Of a DNA stretch of 64,000 bases, positions 2,468-25,035 are shown in pieces. How positions within the stretch are numbered: position 1 is the stretch's first letter; each line of letters begins with the position of its first letter. The notes beneath the pieces were generated by a model. The model was not told the origin of the DNA. It searched no databases and saw only the letters and a program-made list of their open reading frames with translations. This stretch comes from Nitrospira sp. (GTDB lineage Bacteria > Nitrospirota > Nitrospiria > Nitrospirales > Nitrospiraceae). Made by a program: the position numbers and the translations under genes. The stretch lies in NCBI GenBank assembly GCA_015903945.1, contig JABMDL010000010.1, positions 1-64,000 of the forward strand, read 5' to 3'.

Positions 2468-3361
2468 TCACGCGTCACGCTCGCCTCGCTGAGCGGGCGA
2501 AGCGGGTTTCATGCTGTCCGCCGCGATTCCGATCACCGCAATCCCCGCTCGCTCAGCTTGGCTCACGAGTTCGCCCCGGTCCAACACTACGGTGCGGCCC
2601 GCCTCCACCGCCAGCACGCTCGCTTTGACCGACGCCATGACGTCGATCGTTCGAGGCCCGACGGCGGGCAAATCAAAGCGCATATCCTGCTGCGGCTTGC
2701 TCCGCTTGACAACCACCGCACCTTCCTTGGCCAGTTCGCCACCTCGTTTGATCGCGCCGTCGGTCCCTTCCACCGCCTCCACCGCCACGATCACCCGATC
2801 TTTGACCACCACACATTGTCCGATATCGAGCCGCCCGGTCTCCTGCGCGATATCCCAGCCGTACCGGATATCGGCCCATTCTTTCTTGGACGGCTGCCGC
2901 GAGGTCAGCGGCCCTGCTTCCACGAGAATCCCTTCAAGGCCGAACGTCGATTCGCAGATGACGATCCCTTCCCGTTCGAGTTCAGCCGCGATTTCACGAA
3001 GAATATCGTCGTCCTTCCACAACGCAATGCGGGCAGCCAGCGCCAGCGCGCGAAAGTCCGGCCGTACCGTGCTGAAGACATGGGTCTTCTTGATGCCGCC
3101 CAGCATCACCACCTGCCGCACACCATCGCCCTTGAATGCGTTGATCAGCTTGTTGAGTTGCCCGATCCTGATCCAGTGAATCCGATCAACGTGGCGTTCG
3201 AGTTCCGGATCCGTTTCCCCCTCGTGCGCCACCGCGGACACGTACAGCCCCAGCTTGCGCGCGTTATCCGCGAAGATGATCGGAAACCGCCCGTTGCCGG
3301 CGATCAAGCCGATACGCCCGTCCGCTATAGGCACGGCTGGAGTCATCGTGGCTGCCATCAT
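2468..3361 (-). CDS. lpxI: UDP-2,3-diacylglucosamine pyrophosphatase LpxI
   Basis: Hydrolyses UDP-2,3-diacylglucosamine to lipid X and UMP, the step done by LpxH in E. coli. The 297-residue length, the start IGLIAGNGRFPIIFADNARK, the central GGIKKTH and the C-terminal half with MRFDLPAVGPRTI match the LpxI (DUF1009) family first characterised in Caulobacter. Its ATG overlaps the lpxA stop by four bases. No lpxH-like gene is in the window. The longest antisense ORF here (2444..3370 plus) is a shadow. Confidence 0.95.
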   Translation of the reverse strand: MMAATMTPAVPIADGRIGLIAGNGRFPIIFADNARKLGLYVSAVAHEGETDPELERHVDRIHWIRIGQLNKLINAFKGDGVRQVVMLGGIKKTHVFSTVRPDFRALALAARIALWKDDDILREIAAELEREGIVICESTFGLEGILVEAGPLTSRQPSKKEWADIRYGWDIAQETGRLDIGQCVVVKDRVIVAVEAVEGTDGAIKRGGELAKEGAVVVKRSKPQQDMRFDLPAVGPRTIDVMASVKASVLAVEAGRTVVLDRGELVSQAERAGIAVIGIAADSMKPASPAQRGERDA

Positions 3362-4176
3362 AGCTGGTGATCGGCCTCACGCTCGAGATCGAGGTGGACC
3401 GCCCGCGAGATTCCACGTTTGGTCCCCTCCATAAACGTGATAATCTTCGCAACATCCTCCTGCCCTTTGAACTCCTTCTGGGCCAGTTTGATGGCCTCCG
3501 CCGTCCGATGGCCTGCACGAAAGAGAAGATCGAAAGCTTTCCTGAGTAGCGCGATGCGTTCCGAGGAAAAACCATGGCGTTGCAACCCGACCGTGTTCAG
3601 CCCGTAGAGGTGGGCCCGATACCCGCCGGCGGCAAACGTAAACGGCGGAATATCCTGGCCGATCGCACAACACCCGCCGACCATCACATAGTCTCCGACT
3701 CGCACAAACTGAAGAATGCCGGTTAACCCCCCGATTACGGAATGATCTCCGATAGTAATGTGTCCGGCTAAGCTCGCCGCGTTTGCCATAATAATATGGT
3801 TGCCGAGCCGGCAATCGTGCGCCACGTGCACATAGGCCATCAATATACCCTTGGATCCAAGAGAGGTCACCCCGCCGCCTTGTACCGTTGCGCGATTGAT
3901 GGTGACGTATTCACGAATAATGTTGTCGTCGCCGAGGACGACTTTCGTGGGCTCCCCACGATAGCCGAGGTGCTGCGGGGGGCCGCCGATCGAGGCAAAG
4001 GGATGCACTTCGTTGCGCTCGCCGATCTCGGTCCATCCGTCGACAGAGACGTGGGACAACAATCTGGTCCCCTTGCCGATCGCGACGTGCTCGCCAACAA
4101 CACAGAATGGTCCCACTTCCACGTCATCGGCAAGTTTCGCCTTGGGATGGATAATCGCTGTTGGATGTATCTTCAC
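3358..4176 (-). CDS. lpxA: Acyl-ACP--UDP-N-acetylglucosamine O-acyltransferase
   Basis: First enzyme of lipid A synthesis. It moves a hydroxyacyl chain from ACP to the 3-OH of UDP-GlcNAc, or to the 3-amino group if a GnnA/GnnB pathway operates. The 272 residues consist of left-handed beta-helix hexapeptide repeats (for example IHPTAIIHPKAKLADDVEVG) followed by a C-terminal helical domain. The catalytic histidine lies in VHVAHDCRLG, followed by the conserved NAASLAGH. It is coupled to lpxI by overlap and lies 126 bases after fabZ. Confidence 0.96.
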   Translation of the reverse strand: MKIHPTAIIHPKAKLADDVEVGPFCVVGEHVAIGKGTRLLSHVSVDGWTEIGERNEVHPFASIGGPPQHLGYRGEPTKVVLGDDNIIREYVTINRATVQGGGVTSLGSKGILMAYVHVAHDCRLGNHIIMANAASLAGHITIGDHSVIGGLTGILQFVRVGDYVMVGGCCAIGQDIPPFTFAAGGYRAHLYGLNTVGLQRHGFSSERIALLRKAFDLLFRAGHRTAEAIKLAQKEFKGQEDVAKIITFMEGTKRGISRAVHLDLEREADHQL

Positions 4177-17696: not shown

Positions 17697-18680
17697 CTAC
17701 GGCGCCGGGGCGCCCGCTGCGGAAACCGCGTCGGGGTCTGGCGACAAGATCGCCGGCTGTGTCTCGGATTTGAACGGCAAGTCCAGCAGCGCATAGGGAT
17801 TCACGCGCGCACCGTTGAGTTTCACACCCCAATGGAGATGAGGCCCGGTCGCGCGCCCGGTGGCCCCCACTTTACCGATGATCTGTCCCGTTTTCACCGC
17901 CTCCCCGTCCTTGACCAACACGTCGGACAGATGGAAGTACATTGAGTAGAACCCGAGGCCATGGTCCAGAAAGATGCCTTTGCCTGAGAAAACATGATCG
18001 ACGGTCAGCCGCACGACTCCGTCGTTTGTCGCCGCCACATCCGTGCCGGTCGGCGCACCGATGTCTTCTCCGTTATGGGGATTGCGGGCCTGGCCGTTCA
18101 TGATGCGCACACTGCCGAAGATGCCGGTTCGTTTCCCGCTCACCGGCTCGACAAAACTGGGCTGCCACAGTCTGCTTTGGGAATCAGTTGCGAGGGCCTC
18201 TTTCACTTGCTCCTGCTCGGCCTTCCATCGGGCCAGGCCCTGCTCGTCGAGATCGACCTTGTCCTTGGGCAGTTTCAGGTGCTCGACACGAAATTTCTCT
18301 TTGACCACCTCGACACGGTAGGTGAGCGACCGGCTGTGTCCCGCGCTGGTGACCTGAATGGCCAGTTCGTGCGTTCCCGGTTCATCTTGCAGATCGATGC
18401 CGAGCAATCCCACAAATCCTTTGGGCTCACCCGGTCTGGTCTCCGGGAACAACTGCACCGTTCGCCCCAAGAATGTGCCCTGCACACGGGCGGTGTCCTC
18501 ATCCGTAGGAACCTTGATCACGAGAATTTGGCCCTGCTTGCCGGTGTATTTCCCGTCGAGCCCGATGGCCGGCCTCGAGATTGAGAATCCATCGACCGGA
18601 AACGCGGCAGCCAGGAGAAACAACGCGAGAGCGATCACCCTGGCCGTCTTGATCATTCTCAACGGACGATACCGGGTCAT
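17697..18680 (-). CDS. Periplasmic M23-family peptidase
   Basis: A 327-residue secreted zinc endopeptidase, probably cutting peptidoglycan cross-bridges. There is a signal helix near residues 10-28 (MIKTARVIALALFLLAAAFPVDG), an immunoglobulin-like middle domain, and a C-terminal LytM domain. Both metal sites are intact: NPHNGEDIGAP (H and D) and GPHLHWGVK (HxH). Its ATG overlaps the pafA stop by four bases, so it is the last gene of the proteasome operon. It is distinct from the degenerate EnvC-like gene at 28794. Confidence 0.9.
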   Translation of the reverse strand: MTRYRPLRMIKTARVIALALFLLAAAFPVDGFSISRPAIGLDGKYTGKQGQILVIKVPTDEDTARVQGTFLGRTVQLFPETRPGEPKGFVGLLGIDLQDEPGTHELAIQVTSAGHSRSLTYRVEVVKEKFRVEHLKLPKDKVDLDEQGLARWKAEQEQVKEALATDSQSRLWQPSFVEPVSGKRTGIFGSVRIMNGQARNPHNGEDIGAPTGTDVAATNDGVVRLTVDHVFSGKGIFLDHGLGFYSMYFHLSDVLVKDGEAVKTGQIIGKVGATGRATGPHLHWGVKLNGARVNPYALLDLPFKSETQPAILSPDPDAVSAAGAPAP

Positions 18681-20053
18681 CGGTAAAATCTCCCTCCCGA
18701 CATTTGCGAGACCAATTCTTCAACCCGCCGATTGGACGCGCTGAAGGGATCCATGCACAGAATCGTTTCCTCCCAGTAGCCGTTCAGCTTCAGATAGGTC
18801 CAGTCCACCGTGTACGAGCGGTTCTTCGCCCTGGCGAACCGGATGAAGTCGCCACGGACCTTGGCCCTCGTCGTTTGTGGCGGTGTAAACATGGCCCGTT
18901 GGACCGCGTCCTCTTCCACAATCCGCTCGATGAGTCCGCGGGATTCCATCAGATAGTAGAGTCCCCGCGTTCGCTTGACGTCATGAAATTGAAGATCGAG
19001 CAGGAACACTCGCGGGTCGTCCCACCCACACCCTTTCTTGTCCACGTAGCTCTGGATCAGATGTTTCTTGGCCACCCAATCGATGTGATGCGTGAGTTGC
19101 ATGGGGTCGTCTTCCAGTCTGGCAAGGACCGTCTCCCACTTGGCATAGACGTCATCGAGAATCGCCTCGTGCGCCTGCTGGTCCAGATACTCCTTGGCAC
19201 GCTCCAGATACATCCGCTGGATTTCGACGGCCGTCAGCTGCCGGCCGTCGTCGAGCCGCACTTTCTTCTTGAGCGTCGGATCGCGCGCAATCTCGCGGAT
19301 TGCCTTGACGGGATCCTCCAACTCCATCCCGTGCACCGCATAGCCCTCCTCGATCATCGACAGGACCAGCGCCGCCGTGCCCACCTTGAGATAGGTGGCA
19401 AACTCCGACATGTTGGAATCGCCGACAATGATATGAAGGCGGCGATAGCGTTCGGCGTCGGCATGCGGTTCGTCGCGGGTGTTGATGATGCTGCGCGAGG
19501 AGGTGGTCGATGACGACGTCTTCTCATGAATATGCTGGGCCCGCTGGGAAATGAAATATTGCGGCTTCCCGGAGACCTTGAGCACCTTCCCCGCCCCACT
19601 GAACACCTGGCGCGTGACGAAGAACGGGATCAGCTGCTCCGTGACTTTCCAGAAATCGACGTCGCGCCGCATCAGAAAATTTTCATGGCAGCCGTAGGTA
19701 TTGCCCAGCGAATCCGTATTGTTCTTGAAAATATAGATCTCGCCTGACAGCCCTTCCTCGCGAAGCCGCTCTTCCGCCGCCGGCAGGCAGGCTTCCAGCA
19801 GCCGCTCACCGGCCTTGTCATGGATTACGAGATCGAGAATGTTGTCACACTCCGGCGTGGAGTATTCCGGATGGCACCCGGTATCTTGATAGAATCGCGC
19901 CCCATTGACCAGAAACGCGTTCGACGGCCAACTGTTCGGAATGAGGCCCTCGAAGATATACCCCAGTACCTTTTCCATCGGCAGATAGATTCGGCCATTA
20001 GGCGAAAAGATCAGGCCGTACTCGTTCTCGAGGCCGAAGATGCGCTGTTTCAT
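18677..20053 (-). CDS. pafA: Pup--protein ligase PafA
   Basis: Ligates the C-terminal glutamate of Pup (or the related UBact) to lysines of target proteins, marking them for the proteasome. I use the ATG at 20053 (MKQRIFGLENEYGL, 458 residues); the track ORF adds 20 unlikely codons. Family landmarks: GARFYQDTGCHPEYSTPECD, FKNNTDSLGNTYGCHENFLM, INTRDEPHADAERYRRLH and QPPQTTRAK-like PPQTTRAKVRGDFI. PafA is separated from Dop by the shorter N-terminus and by TVDWTYLKLNGYWEETILCMDPF. It lies downstream of prcA. Confidence 0.95.
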   Translation of the reverse strand: MKQRIFGLENEYGLIFSPNGRIYLPMEKVLGYIFEGLIPNSWPSNAFLVNGARFYQDTGCHPEYSTPECDNILDLVIHDKAGERLLEACLPAAEERLREEGLSGEIYIFKNNTDSLGNTYGCHENFLMRRDVDFWKVTEQLIPFFVTRQVFSGAGKVLKVSGKPQYFISQRAQHIHEKTSSSTTSSRSIINTRDEPHADAERYRRLHIIVGDSNMSEFATYLKVGTAALVLSMIEEGYAVHGMELEDPVKAIREIARDPTLKKKVRLDDGRQLTAVEIQRMYLERAKEYLDQQAHEAILDDVYAKWETVLARLEDDPMQLTHHIDWVAKKHLIQSYVDKKGCGWDDPRVFLLDLQFHDVKRTRGLYYLMESRGLIERIVEEDAVQRAMFTPPQTTRAKVRGDFIRFARAKNRSYTVDWTYLKLNGYWEETILCMDPFSASNRRVEELVSQMSGGRFYR

Positions 20054-20141
20054 GGGACCTGGATACGTCATGGGTGTCGCAATCAGATTACACGGCCATC
20101 CCCTGTTCTTCAACAGATGGGGAAGGATTGAGCGGGACGGA

Positions 20142-20828
20142 TCAGGCGGAGAGGAGCCGGCGAATGTCGCTCACCGGCACACGGCGGAATTTGCGACCCA
20201 CTCGGTGGCGTTCCAGGACGGCCACTTCAAGCCCTTCGGGGGCCAGCTTGAGATTGGCGGTCTGCTCCAGCGCCGAGACACAGCGGGACAACGCAGCGGC
20301 CAAGGACGGAGGCTCACTTGAGCTTTTTTCCTTCAACACGGCTTGGACGGCGTCGGATTTTCCGCCGATCACAGAGAAATTCTTCTCGTCAATGATGCTC
20401 CCATCGAACGAAATCCGGTAGATTTCGTTTGGCAGGGCGTCGGCGCCGACCTGTACCACGAGAATTTCAACTTCCAGCGGTTTGGCGTCTTGGCCAAACA
20501 CGGTGCCCAGGCTTTGGGAATAGCCGTTCGCCAGCGATCGGCCGGTCACATCCTCGCGGCTGTACATGAACCCTTTGAGATCGGCATGCCGAATGCCGGC
20601 TTTCCTGAGATTCTCAAATTCGCTGTATTTCCCAGCGCCGGCGAACGCAATGCAGTCGTAGATTTCCGACACCTTGTGGAGGGACGCGCTCGGATTATCC
20701 GCCGTCAGCAAAACCCCCTCGTCATATTCCATCGCGATGATCGAACGGCCCTTGGCGATGCCCTTCCTGGCATACTCCGCCTTGTCCTGCATCATCTGTT
20801 CTGGAGAGACGTAGTACGGCAACGGCAT
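20142..20828 (-). CDS. prcA: Proteasome subunit alpha
   Basis: Forms the outer heptameric rings of the 20S proteasome, gating entry and docking the Mpa ring. The 228 residues start MPLPYYVSPEQMMQDKAEYARKGIAKGRS, very close to the actinobacterial PrcA N-terminus that makes the gate. DVTGRSLANGYSQSLGT and YRISFDGSIIDE follow. The actinobacterial C-terminal tail is shorter here. It starts two bases after prcB, so the subunits should be made in equal amounts. Confidence 0.96.
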   Translation of the reverse strand: MPLPYYVSPEQMMQDKAEYARKGIAKGRSIIAMEYDEGVLLTADNPSASLHKVSEIYDCIAFAGAGKYSEFENLRKAGIRHADLKGFMYSREDVTGRSLANGYSQSLGTVFGQDAKPLEVEILVVQVGADALPNEIYRISFDGSIIDEKNFSVIGGKSDAVQAVLKEKSSSEPPSLAAALSRCVSALEQTANLKLAPEGLEVAVLERHRVGRKFRRVPVSDIRRLLSA

Positions 20829-20830
20829 GG

Positions 20831-21646
20831 TTAGGTCTCCTTCGACCGGCGCAGGTCGATCATGCCGTCGTACACCCCACGAATCCGATCGCCCGGCACA
20901 TCGGCAATGCCCTGCGCCGTCACGAATTTGGCCGTGGGATAAATCCCGCGCACGAAATCCGGACCACCCGTACCCACGTCATCGTCGGCAGCATTGTACA
21001 ATGCCGTCAGCGCCAATTTGAGCACATCCGCCTCCGACAGATTCTTTTGAAAATGCTCCCGCATGGTGTTCCGGGCATCTTTGCCCCCGGAGCCGATCGC
21101 GTGGTAATCCGATTCTTCGTACCGCCCTCCCGTAATGTCGTACTTGAAGATGCGCCCTTCCGTACGCGCGGCATCATACCCGACAAACAGAGGCATCACG
21201 ACGAGCCCCTGGAACACCATCGGCAGGTTGGCTTTGACCATTTGGCCGAGCTTGTTGGCCTTGCCTTCGCAGGACAGCGGCATCCCTTCCAATTTCTCAT
21301 AATGTTCGAGCTCGGTTTGCAACAGCTTGGCCATTTCAATACAGGGCCCTGCGGCACCGGCAATCGCCATGGCGGAGAATTCATCGATCTTGAATACCTT
21401 TTCAATACGGCGATCGGCAATCTGAAATCCCTCCGTTGCCCGGCGATCGCCGGCAATGACCACCCCCTGTTGATACTTGATGGCCAACACCGTTGTGGCC
21501 TGAGGCACCGCCAGTGAAACACCCGCACGATCCGGCTGATTCGAGGGCATTGATCCCTGGCCGCCCGGCATCAACCCAGGATGGTACTGCGTCACGAAGT
21601 TGAAAAAGCTGGAGTCGTCGTGATTCGGGAAATACGGCAGTTTCAT
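20831..21646 (-). CDS. prcB: Proteasome subunit beta
   Basis: Catalytic subunit of the 20S core. A 50-residue propeptide (MKLPYFPNHDDSSFFNFVTQ...) precedes the nucleophile Thr51, in TTVLAIKYQQGVVIAGDRRA. Counting from this Thr as 1, Asp17 and Lys33 are in place. The residue before the cleavage site is alanine (PQA/TT) rather than the usual glycine. ELEHYEKLEGMPLS and YNAADDDVGTGGPDFVRGIYPT match actinobacterial PrcB. The gene is 22 bases after dop, leaving no room for a pup gene at the place where actinobacteria carry it. Confidence 0.96.
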   Translation of the reverse strand: MKLPYFPNHDDSSFFNFVTQYHPGLMPGGQGSMPSNQPDRAGVSLAVPQATTVLAIKYQQGVVIAGDRRATEGFQIADRRIEKVFKIDEFSAMAIAGAAGPCIEMAKLLQTELEHYEKLEGMPLSCEGKANKLGQMVKANLPMVFQGLVVMPLFVGYDAARTEGRIFKYDITGGRYEESDYHAIGSGGKDARNTMREHFQKNLSEADVLKLALTALYNAADDDVGTGGPDFVRGIYPTAKFVTAQGIADVPGDRIRGVYDGMIDLRRSKET

Positions 21647-21668
21647 AAAGGTATCTAGGGTCGGCGTG

Positions 21669-23168
21669 TCAGGCCTTCAGCTTCTCAATGAGGGCATCAA
21701 CTGTCTCAACCGCATCGAGCAATCCACCGGTCAACGCCTGTGTCCCGCGATGGGGGTCCATCAACGGGATTTTCTTGATGGTCGTGTTGCCCACATCGAA
21801 CAACACCGAAGTCCAACTCGCGCCATACAGTGACGCGGCGAACTTGGCGGCGCAACGGCCCCGGAAATAGGCTCTGGTACCGGGCGGCGGCGTACATTCG
21901 GCCTGCCGGATCTCCGCTTCCTCCACGATCCGCTCAATATGAGCGCCGCGTTCCAGTGTATAGAAGAGCCCTTTCTCAGGACGGACGTCATGGTACTGAA
22001 GGTCCATGAGCTTGGTGCGAGGATCGTCCCACCCGCAACCTTTCCGATCCATGTACGATTCAATCAGATGGCGCTTGGCCACCCAATCCAACTCCCTCAC
22101 CAACAGCCGCGGGTCTCGTTCGAGTTTGCTCAGCACGTCCTCCCAGCGGGCGAGCACCTCCTGTGTCGCCTGCGTTGAACCGCGCGCGGCGTACGAGGCC
22201 GTTGCAGCCGCGAGATAGGCGCGCTGAATCGCCAGCGCCGTCGTCGGACGCCCCCCCGCCAGCTTGATCGTTTGCTTCATCTCCAGATCGCGCGAGACTT
22301 GTTTGAACACCCGAACCGGCTCCTCCAGTTCCACCTGCGGCAACTCAGCACCGGCTTCCAACAGCTCCAGCACGATGTCCAAGGTTCCCACCTTCAGATA
22401 GGTGGAGACCTCCGCCATATTGGCATCGCCCACGATGACATGGAGACGGCGAGACTTGGCGTAATCGGCATGCGGCTCGTCGCGTGAATTGATGATCGGC
22501 CGCTTGACCATCGTATTCAGATCGACCAGGCACTCGAAAAAATCGGCGCGCTGGGAGATTTGATACTCGGCTGGAGCGGTCTGATTCTCCGCGCCGACCT
22601 TTCCGGCCCCGGCAAAGATCGGCCTCGTCACCAAAAACGGCGTGAGCACCCGGACGATCTTTTCGAACGGCACCGTCCGCGAGACCAGGTAGTTCTCATG
22701 GTACCCGTAGCTATTGCCCTTTCCGTCGGAGTTGTTCTTGTACAAGAGATACTGTTCGCTCCCCCGCACCTTCGCGAGTTCCTGAAGACTCTGCGCGAGG
22801 ATCCGTTCTCCAATCCGCTCGAACGCCACCACCTCCCTCGGAGTCGAACACTCCGGCGTGGAGTACTCCGGATGGGCACCATCGACGTACAACCGCCCGC
22901 CGTTGGCGAGGACTTTGTTGAGTTGCCGGTTGTAGTCAGGATTCGGCCGCTCGCGCTCCCCATCGACTTCGAATCCTCGGGCATCTACAAGTGGATTCTC
23001 GTTTTCGTAGTCCCAGATCGCGTGTGGGGCAGGCAGTCCCCGATAGTGCCCGATGACGGCAATGGAGGCGGTCACGGGATCTGCCGCAGCACGCTCCGTC
23101 GCCGCGATGCCGAACTCCGTTTCCGTACCCAGCACTCGTGCGCGATTCGTCGAGGTCTGTTCCTGCAT
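21669..23168 (-). CDS. dop: Pup deamidase/depupylase Dop
   Basis: PafA-like enzyme that removes Pup from targets and deamidates Pup ending in glutamine. Its 499 residues begin RVLGTETEFGIAA and include the Dop-type insertion with IWDYENENPLVDARGFE. RLYVDGAHPEYSTPECS, YKNNSDGKGNSYGYHENYL, INSRDEPHADYAKSRRLH and the C-terminal ASWTSVLFDVG...TQALTGGLLDAVETVDALI follow; that C-terminal part is diagnostic of Dop against PafA. It starts 9 bases after mpa. Presence of a deamidase suggests the missing Pup-like protein ends in Gln or must be recycled. Confidence 0.95.
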   Translation of the reverse strand: MQEQTSTNRARVLGTETEFGIAATERAAADPVTASIAVIGHYRGLPAPHAIWDYENENPLVDARGFEVDGERERPNPDYNRQLNKVLANGGRLYVDGAHPEYSTPECSTPREVVAFERIGERILAQSLQELAKVRGSEQYLLYKNNSDGKGNSYGYHENYLVSRTVPFEKIVRVLTPFLVTRPIFAGAGKVGAENQTAPAEYQISQRADFFECLVDLNTMVKRPIINSRDEPHADYAKSRRLHVIVGDANMAEVSTYLKVGTLDIVLELLEAGAELPQVELEEPVRVFKQVSRDLEMKQTIKLAGGRPTTALAIQRAYLAAATASYAARGSTQATQEVLARWEDVLSKLERDPRLLVRELDWVAKRHLIESYMDRKGCGWDDPRTKLMDLQYHDVRPEKGLFYTLERGAHIERIVEEAEIRQAECTPPPGTRAYFRGRCAAKFAASLYGASWTSVLFDVGNTTIKKIPLMDPHRGTQALTGGLLDAVETVDALIEKLKA

Positions 23169-23177
23169 GAGATTTAG

Positions 23178-24947
23178 TTAGAGGTAGTGCCCGGTGGTGA
23201 CGGTTTCAATCTGGCGGGATTCGCTTGGCCCGCCGCTGATCGTCCGAAGATGCACGATCTTCTCGCCTTTCTTGCCGGCGACCTTCGCCCAATCATCCGG
23301 GTTGGTTGTATTCGGAAGGTCTTCGTGCTCCTTGAATTCTTCACGGATGGCCCGCACCAGATCGTCCGACCTGAGGCCCTGTCCTTCCTGGGCAATTGCC
23401 CGCTTCACGGCGAATTTTTTCGCGCGTGACACAATGCCTTCGATCAGCGCGCCGCTGGCGAAATCTTTGAAATACAGCACTTCCTTCTCGCCGTTGGCGT
23501 AGGTGACTTCAATAAATTTATTCTCTTCACTCGGGGCATACATGGTCTCCACCGTCTTCGCGATCAGCCGATCCACAAGCGCCTGCCGATCGCCTCCATA
23601 ACGGTCCACCTCGTCCTGAGCGAACGGCAGATCTGCCGACACATACTTCGAGAAAATGTCCCGCGCGGCGGTCGCGTCCGGGCGTCCAACTTTGACTTTC
23701 ACATCCAATCGCCCGGCGCGGAGCACGGCGGGGTCGATCAAATCCTGTCGGTTGCTCGCCCCGATCACGATCACGTTGCGCAACCGCTCGACCCCGTCGA
23801 TCTCGGAGAGGAACTGCGGCACGATCGTCGACTCGATATCAGATGAAATCCCCGTGCCCCGAGTCCTGAAGAGCGCGTCCATTTCATCGAAAAAGACGAT
23901 CACCGGATGACCGTCCTCCGCGCGCTCTTTCGCTTTCTTGAAGACCTCGCGCACTTGCCGTTCAGATTCGCCGACGTACTTATTAAGCAATTCCGGCCCT
24001 TTCACGTGCAGGAAATAGCTGCGAATCTCTTTCCCCGCGCGAGAACCCAATTTCTTGGCAATCGAGTTGGCAACGGCCTTGGCAATGAGCGTCTTCCCGC
24101 AGCCCGGCGGCCCATAGAGCAGCACGCCTTTGGGCGCACTCAGTTTGTATTCAGCAAAAATGTGCGGATGGAGGAAGGGCAATTCGACTGCGTCGCGGAC
24201 CTGCTCCAATTCTTTCTGGAGGCCGCCGATGTGTTCATAATCGACGTCCGGGACCTCTTCCAATACGAGTTCTTCCGCTTCTGACTTGGGCAATTTTTCA
24301 ATCACATACCCGGAGCGAGGGTCGTACAGCAGATGGTCGCCGACGCTCAGCCGTTCGACGAGTAGCGGGTCACCCAGTTCCGCGACTTTTTCCTCGTCGA
24401 AATGGAGCGTCACGAGTGCGCGCCCCCCCTCCAGCACGTCCTTCAGGCGGACGACCTCACCCTGGCTGTCGAACCCCTTGGCCTCGATGACGTTGAGAGC
24501 CTCGTTCAGGATGACTTCCTGCCCTTTCCGTAGCTGCGTACGTTTAATGGAGGGATGAAGGCTGACTTTCATTTTCCGTCCCGACACGAACACCGTCCCC
24601 GTGCCATCTTCGTTGAGGCAGGAAAAAATCGCGTACGCAGACGGCGGCGCCGTCAGCTTGTCCACTTCGGCGCGCAAGGCTTCGATCTGGGCCTTGGCTT
24701 CGTGCAGGGTGGCAACGAGCTTTTCGTTCTGCTTATTGGCTTGTTCGAGTTGGTGGCGTGACTGATACAGCCGGCGGATTTCCTCTTCCATCGACTGGAT
24801 TTGTACGCGCAGCTTATCGACTTCCCGCGCATGCTCGTCGTTCTTGTGTATCATGTCCGCGTCACCATCGGACAACTGGTGCGTGATTTTCTTGACAGAA
24901 TCCCGAAGAGACCGAAACCGGTTCGACCGCCCCTTGCTGTCTCCCAT
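23178..24947 (-). CDS. mpa: Proteasome-activating AAA ATPase (Mpa/ARC)
   Basis: Hexameric unfoldase that captures Pup-tagged proteins through its coiled coils and feeds them into PrcAB. The track ORF starts at 25016, but a promoter -10 box lies there. The ATG at 24947 (MGDSKGRSNRFRSLRDS, 589 residues) fits better, with GGAG just upstream. Layout: N-terminal coiled coil (about residues 35-90), OB domains, AAA module with GPPGCGKTLIAKAVAN and VIVFFDEMDALFRTRG. The C-terminus GHYL has the penultimate tyrosine that docks on the alpha ring. First gene of the proteasome operon. Confidence 0.95.
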   Translation of the reverse strand: MGDSKGRSNRFRSLRDSVKKITHQLSDGDADMIHKNDEHAREVDKLRVQIQSMEEEIRRLYQSRHQLEQANKQNEKLVATLHEAKAQIEALRAEVDKLTAPPSAYAIFSCLNEDGTGTVFVSGRKMKVSLHPSIKRTQLRKGQEVILNEALNVIEAKGFDSQGEVVRLKDVLEGGRALVTLHFDEEKVAELGDPLLVERLSVGDHLLYDPRSGYVIEKLPKSEAEELVLEEVPDVDYEHIGGLQKELEQVRDAVELPFLHPHIFAEYKLSAPKGVLLYGPPGCGKTLIAKAVANSIAKKLGSRAGKEIRSYFLHVKGPELLNKYVGESERQVREVFKKAKERAEDGHPVIVFFDEMDALFRTRGTGISSDIESTIVPQFLSEIDGVERLRNVIVIGASNRQDLIDPAVLRAGRLDVKVKVGRPDATAARDIFSKYVSADLPFAQDEVDRYGGDRQALVDRLIAKTVETMYAPSEENKFIEVTYANGEKEVLYFKDFASGALIEGIVSRAKKFAVKRAIAQEGQGLRSDDLVRAIREEFKEHEDLPNTTNPDDWAKVAGKKGEKIVHLRTISGGPSESRQIETVTTGHYL

Positions 24948-25006: not shown

Positions 25007-25035
25007 ATTCTAACACCCGACCTAGGGGTGGTCAA
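25007..25035 (-). promoter_or_regulatory. Sigma70-type promoter of the proteasome operon
   Basis: Minus strand TTGACC (25030-25035), 17-base spacer, TAGAAT (25007-25012). Transcription would begin near 25000, about 50 bases before the mpa ATG at 24947. The -10 box overlaps the GTG at 25016, which argues against the longer mpa frame. Confidence 0.65.

Follow-up and report, generated by a model that had tools for sequence, protein, structure and literature searches.

A pup gene apart from its proteasome operon in a Nitrospira genome and across its order

Where is the tag encoded in a genome whose pupylation and proteasome operon holds no tag gene? The question is raised by an operon of Nitrospira that we found in the window analysed here, a stretch of 64,000 bases corresponding to bases 1-64000 of a contig of 119,635 bases (C52, whose numbering continues that of the window). 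All five genes of the string mpa-dop-prcB-prcA-pafA are present at window positions 18677-24947 on the minus strand, with ATG starts and intact frames. They are tightly packed, with intergenic gaps of 9, 22, 2, and 88 bases, exactly as described in the first-pass annotation. The features of the region are:

25007 to 25035, minus strand: promoter-like site of the operon, sigma-70-type, TTGACC-17-TAGAAT (consensus scan)
23178 to 24947, minus strand: mpa, proteasomal ATPase of 589 aa with the C-terminus GHYL (TIGR03689, 737.8 bits; frame and start checked)
21669 to 23168, minus strand: dop, depupylase of 499 aa (TIGR03688, 544.2 bits, above the cut-off)
20831 to 21646, minus strand: prcB, 20S proteasome beta subunit of 271 aa (TIGR03690, 292.9 bits)
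20142 to 20828, minus strand: prcA, 20S proteasome alpha subunit of 228 aa (TIGR03691, 298.7 bits)
18677 to 20053, minus strand: pafA, Pup ligase of 458 aa (TIGR03686, 560.4 bits, above the cut-off)
17697 to 18680, minus strand: gene of an M23-family peptidase (PF01551, 101.8 bits)

Mpa, Dop, PrcB, PrcA, and PafA all passed the NCBIfam cut-offs. The domains PF17758 and PF16450 were found in Mpa, which identifies it as an Mpa/ARC ATPase with proteasomal OB domains. Dop aligns over residues 11-495 with the solved Dop 4b0r, and PafA over residues 3-452 with the solved PafA 4b0t; both have kept the Asp that is catalytic in this family. The consensus scan found one TTGACC-17-TAGAAT site where 0.1 was expected. 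Its role as a promoter is predicted, and relatives from the same order also have a TTGAC...TAGAAT arrangement upstream of mpa. The M23 peptidase gene and pafA share 4 bases, at the start of the former and the stop of the latter, and such a gene adjoins pafA in most of the operons that we read across the phylum, including those of other orders. Judged from these sequences, the operon is an ordinary Pup-proteasome system in an unusual gene arrangement. It shares with the actinobacterial Pup system (Mycobacterium) the same enzymes, the same mpa-dop-prcB-prcA-pafA order, and the same C-terminal half of Pup, but differs from it in the place of the pup gene.

In Actinobacteria, pup lies between dop and prcB, as the earlier annotation rightly stated, and sister orders within the phylum have it there too. 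The whole window contains 782 stop-to-stop frames of 40-130 codons, none with GGE or GGQ at its end. Around the cluster, the sole frame of at least 30 codons ending in G[E/Q] is an out-of-frame stretch within dop. No UBact gene was found in this operon either, the only UBact profile match over the threshold being in a different operon on contig C65. The frame scan of the window and the profile searches thus confirm the original observation that the cluster contains neither a Pup nor a UBact frame. That observation might have been undone by a missed short frame or by an assembly gap between dop and prcB. We checked both and found neither: a hidden Pup or UBact is ruled out by the six-frame scan together with the profile searches, which place both tags elsewhere, and a gap is ruled out by the continuity of the sequence and by the recurrence of the same pup-less junction across the order.

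The whole-genome profile search proposed at that stage was run with the Pfam Pup profile PF05639. It gave a single match over the cut-off (66.9 bits, C52:67622-67822), on the operon's strand of the same contig and outside the operon. The full frame, C52:67619-67843 on the minus strand, encodes 74 aa with the C-terminus GGE (MEKQERKQEPKREPQAKDEVKANPKVVEAGKKLKVVEAGKKLKEDIDKLVDEIDDVLEKNAEEFVKNYVQKGGE) and scores 61.2 bits against TIGR03687. It lies 3.6 kb beyond the end of the window, at a distance of 42.7 kb upstream from mpa, and is flanked by two neighbors, one on each side, that read in sequence as hppA (membrane pyrophosphatase) and recJ. The modifier had been suggested to be unlinked, replaced, or lost; the first of these holds, and the other two do not. 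The C-terminal half of this Pup closely matches that of M. tuberculosis Pup in solved complexes, although it ends in GGE instead of the mycobacterial GGQ. Within the gene, 27 bases are exactly duplicated in tandem (VVEAGKKLK twice) where the region of the Mpa-binding helix begins. None of the relatives read has this duplication, and it had no match in the other genomes where we sought it, a collection that possibly does not include the genome's own record; it is either genuine or an artifact of assembly.

To place this arrangement in the phylum, we used a sample of 198 genomes of Nitrospirota, this one included. Pup is present in 88 of the 89 genomes that carry PrcB1, the PrcB of the window-operon type. 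Outside the window's order, pup stands directly before prcB in 34/34 loci, whereas inside the order it occurs within 1 kb of the operon in none of 55 genomes. When the DNA is read, the sister orders show the string thiE-mpa-dop-pup-prcB-prcA-pafA-M23 peptidase (e.g., L069, L074, and L076, with closely related proteins), and the order shows the same string minus pup. Unlinked pup genes of the order lie on the operon's contig in 27 cases, at distances of 41-220 kb or, once, 1.4 Mb. They have a common site: in four families of the order (f1, f2, f3, and f4), almost all loci read have the arrangement hppA-pup-recJ-relA, and in a few loci of the order one neighbor of pup, hppA or recJ, went undetected. 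The recJ loci that we found in sister orders have no pup upstream of recJ. Five members of the order (G008, G014, G019, G041, and G225) yielded no Pup, but recJ is also missing from these assemblies or cut at a contig end. These absences therefore look like assembly gaps, and we do not accept them as losses of Pup.

Since the sister orders keep pup between dop and prcB, the gap at this position marks a relocation within this lineage. One relocation event at the base of the order would be the simplest account and the one that best fits the gene orders. We are highly confident that the window holds an ordinary Pup-proteasome operon using an ordinary Pup, whose gene was relocated in the order's ancestor and is separately transcribed beside recJ. 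In that ancestor, pup would have left the dop-prcB slot and settled as a separate gene next to recJ, in most cases with hppA on its other side, and it would have stayed there.

A scan of titled records for Pup agreed with the sample, and the less regular genomes gave several further observations. The hppA/recJ site recurs in 27 records titled Nitrospira, Nitrospiraceae, or Nitrospirae (L098-L124), which hold the closest Pups, and in one record titled Nitrospinota (L125). In the other 52 records of the scan, operon genes were present in the stretch read in 50 and absent from two (L131 and L134). The first of these two, from a genome titled candidate division NC10 (G239), has a well-conserved Pup, ending in RGGE, whose gene lies close to an integrase-like frame. 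We found no PafA/Dop gene in that assembly; either the tag is an orphan or the assembly is incomplete. The second comes from a genome titled Rokuibacteriota (G240; L134, L178/L182), where mpa-dop-prcB-prcA-pafA has no detected pup and a pup lies on another contig, possibly through an independent relocation. A decayed pup that ends in QQGRG, with no terminal Glu, occupies the usual recJ site in G043 (L092, G043:C79, about 3230-3400), a 96%-complete draft genome in which no gene of the Pup-ligase family (PafA/Dop) was found. This one draft genome fits the idea that pup is kept only while its enzymes remain. Finally, the Pup encoded by one single-contig genome (L062, G052:C1) is unusual in carrying an internal insertion, DKALGENAVKENAAEFVKNNVQKGGE.

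The relocated gene seems to have its own expression signals. A terminator with a 15-pair stem and a T-rich tail (C52:67956-67990) follows hppA, upstream of pup. Between this terminator and pup, most of the family has a conserved block, CTTGACGG-N14-G[A/G]GTA[A/T]GGT, in unconserved surroundings; in this genome the promoter-like block is at C52:67909-67938. It is followed by a conserved GGAGGTGCTC (ribosome site) and by the start codon of pup. Because of the terminator and of this block, and because the operon has a site of its own, pup is most likely a separate transcription unit. The median dN/dS of pup is 0.017 (169 pairs), and the gene is therefore under strong purifying selection at its new site.

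Separate transcription may have a purpose, since the relocation could let the levels of the tag and of the enzymes be set separately. It is at least as likely that the move was neutral, i.e., a chance rearrangement after which any promoter that expressed pup sufficed and no separate control arose. We give this view, which competes with the supposed purpose and not with the relocation itself, even odds. Both promoter-like sites resemble housekeeping sites, in line with a neutral move, and the pup block is not common to other genes: we found it nowhere else in the genome, could not find a pup regulon, and found no regulatory motif common to pup and the operon. Against it, a deep clade has retained both the site and the promoter-like block, although such conservation is compatible with either view.

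Another possibility is a transfer, in which the order's native pup was lost and a foreign copy arrived beside recJ. The neighbors at the new site are indeed unrelated, and a protein as short as Pup does not allow a decisive tree. Yet the closest Pup sequences come from Nitrospirota, and the remainder of the operon has been inherited vertically; in a quick tree, the order's Dop and PafA fall within Nitrospirota beside the sister orders with operon-linked pup. We regard such a transfer as unlikely, and as less likely than relocation.

With the relocated Pup as the tag, the pathway would run as follows. PafA would attach Pup, through its C-terminal Glu, to lysines on the proteins to be tagged. 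By the chemistry of PafA, a Pup that already ends in Glu requires no deamidation, and Dop would therefore act as a depupylase. Mpa would bind the helix of Pup and pass the tagged protein on to the PrcA/PrcB barrel. That Pup is covalently attached to lysines here, and that proteins so tagged are degraded, is expected from established pupylation biochemistry, and the match of the window's PafA and Dop to Pup-system enzymes suggests that they act on the relocated Pup in the cell.

The genome encodes a second tag. The first-pass annotation had mentioned that a Pup-like modifier, UBact, has been proposed for Gram-negative phyla; it is present in this genome, in an operon other than that of the window. 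The genome search with the UBact profile gave one match over the threshold (C65:28843-29007), within a complete second operon, mpa2-dop2-UBact-prcB2-prcA2-pafA2, at G000:C65:25535-32170 (L033:5536-12171):

C65:25535-27289: mpa2
C65:27296-28822: dop2, which overlaps the UBact gene by a few bases
C65:28819-29010: UBact, 63 aa with its ATG, ending in RTGE, between dop2 and prcB2
C65:29091-29879: prcB2
C65:29872-30681: prcA2
C65:30689-32170: pafA2

The UBact-proteasome system, reportedly described by Lehmann et al. in BBRC in 2017, is thus complete in this genome, whereas the proteins of the window fit the models of the Pup system instead. Here, UBact fills the dop-prcB slot that pup holds in other Pup operons. 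The products of dop2 and pafA2 fall short of the Pup-system cut-offs that Dop and PafA of the window pass, and in a quick tree their very long branches set them apart from every Pup-system enzyme. Both tags occur in 63 genomes of the phylum sample, Pup only in 27, and UBact only in 7, among which G225 is probably so counted because of an assembly gap.

That the window operon tags with UBact from the second operon, the unlinked Pup being a leftover, is very improbable: UBact is present in the genome and the Dop/PafA proteins of the two systems are homologous, but UBact sits within its own complete operon, the two pairs of enzymes fall on opposite sides of the Pup-system cut-offs, Pup is under strong purifying selection, and relatives with a window-type operon and PafA/Dop but with neither UBact nor a second Dop/PafA pair (e.g., G036, G039, and G050) keep Pup. 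The reading that we retain for the window, an ordinary operon with a relocated Pup, would have the second operon running in parallel with its own UBact tag. A more ambitious version, in which the two pathways are orthogonal and a rewiring of the Pup branch has put the supply of tag under a promoter of its own, independently of the enzymes, is rather doubtful.

The co-existence of Pup and UBact is not new in kind; its frequency in Nitrospirota is documented here. Leptospirillum ferrooxidans has two copies of its pupylation locus, L1 and L2, with identical genetic contexts reported and with an L2 tag that lacks the terminal GGE (PMC3511204). This resembles the present case in having two whole systems per genome, one with a tag that, like UBact, does not end in GGE, and we infer that L2 is a UBact system. 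The contexts of L1 and L2 are nevertheless said to be identical, unlike the situation in the window's order, where the operon of the Pup system has no pup.

Our literature search, which covered openly readable papers, found no description of a relocated Nitrospira pup. Published accounts describe Pup as invariably next to a PafA gene (PMC2588565) and the order of pupylation genes as rigidly conserved (PMC3511204). An unlinked pup throughout an order contradicts both statements. In the present genome, the distance is 42.7 kb and pup has signals of its own, instead of standing between dop and prcB, as in Actinobacteria, or directly before prcB, as in the sister orders. The adjacency of pup to dop and prcB is usual but does not define a Pup-proteasome system, whose chemistry is independent of it.

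These results correct a published generalisation, since a whole order keeps pup apart from the genes of its enzymes. Searches based on operons would wrongly call such genomes tag-less. Nitrifiers of the Nitrospira type are also a natural place to ask whether the two small protein tags, Pup and UBact, act independently within the same cell.
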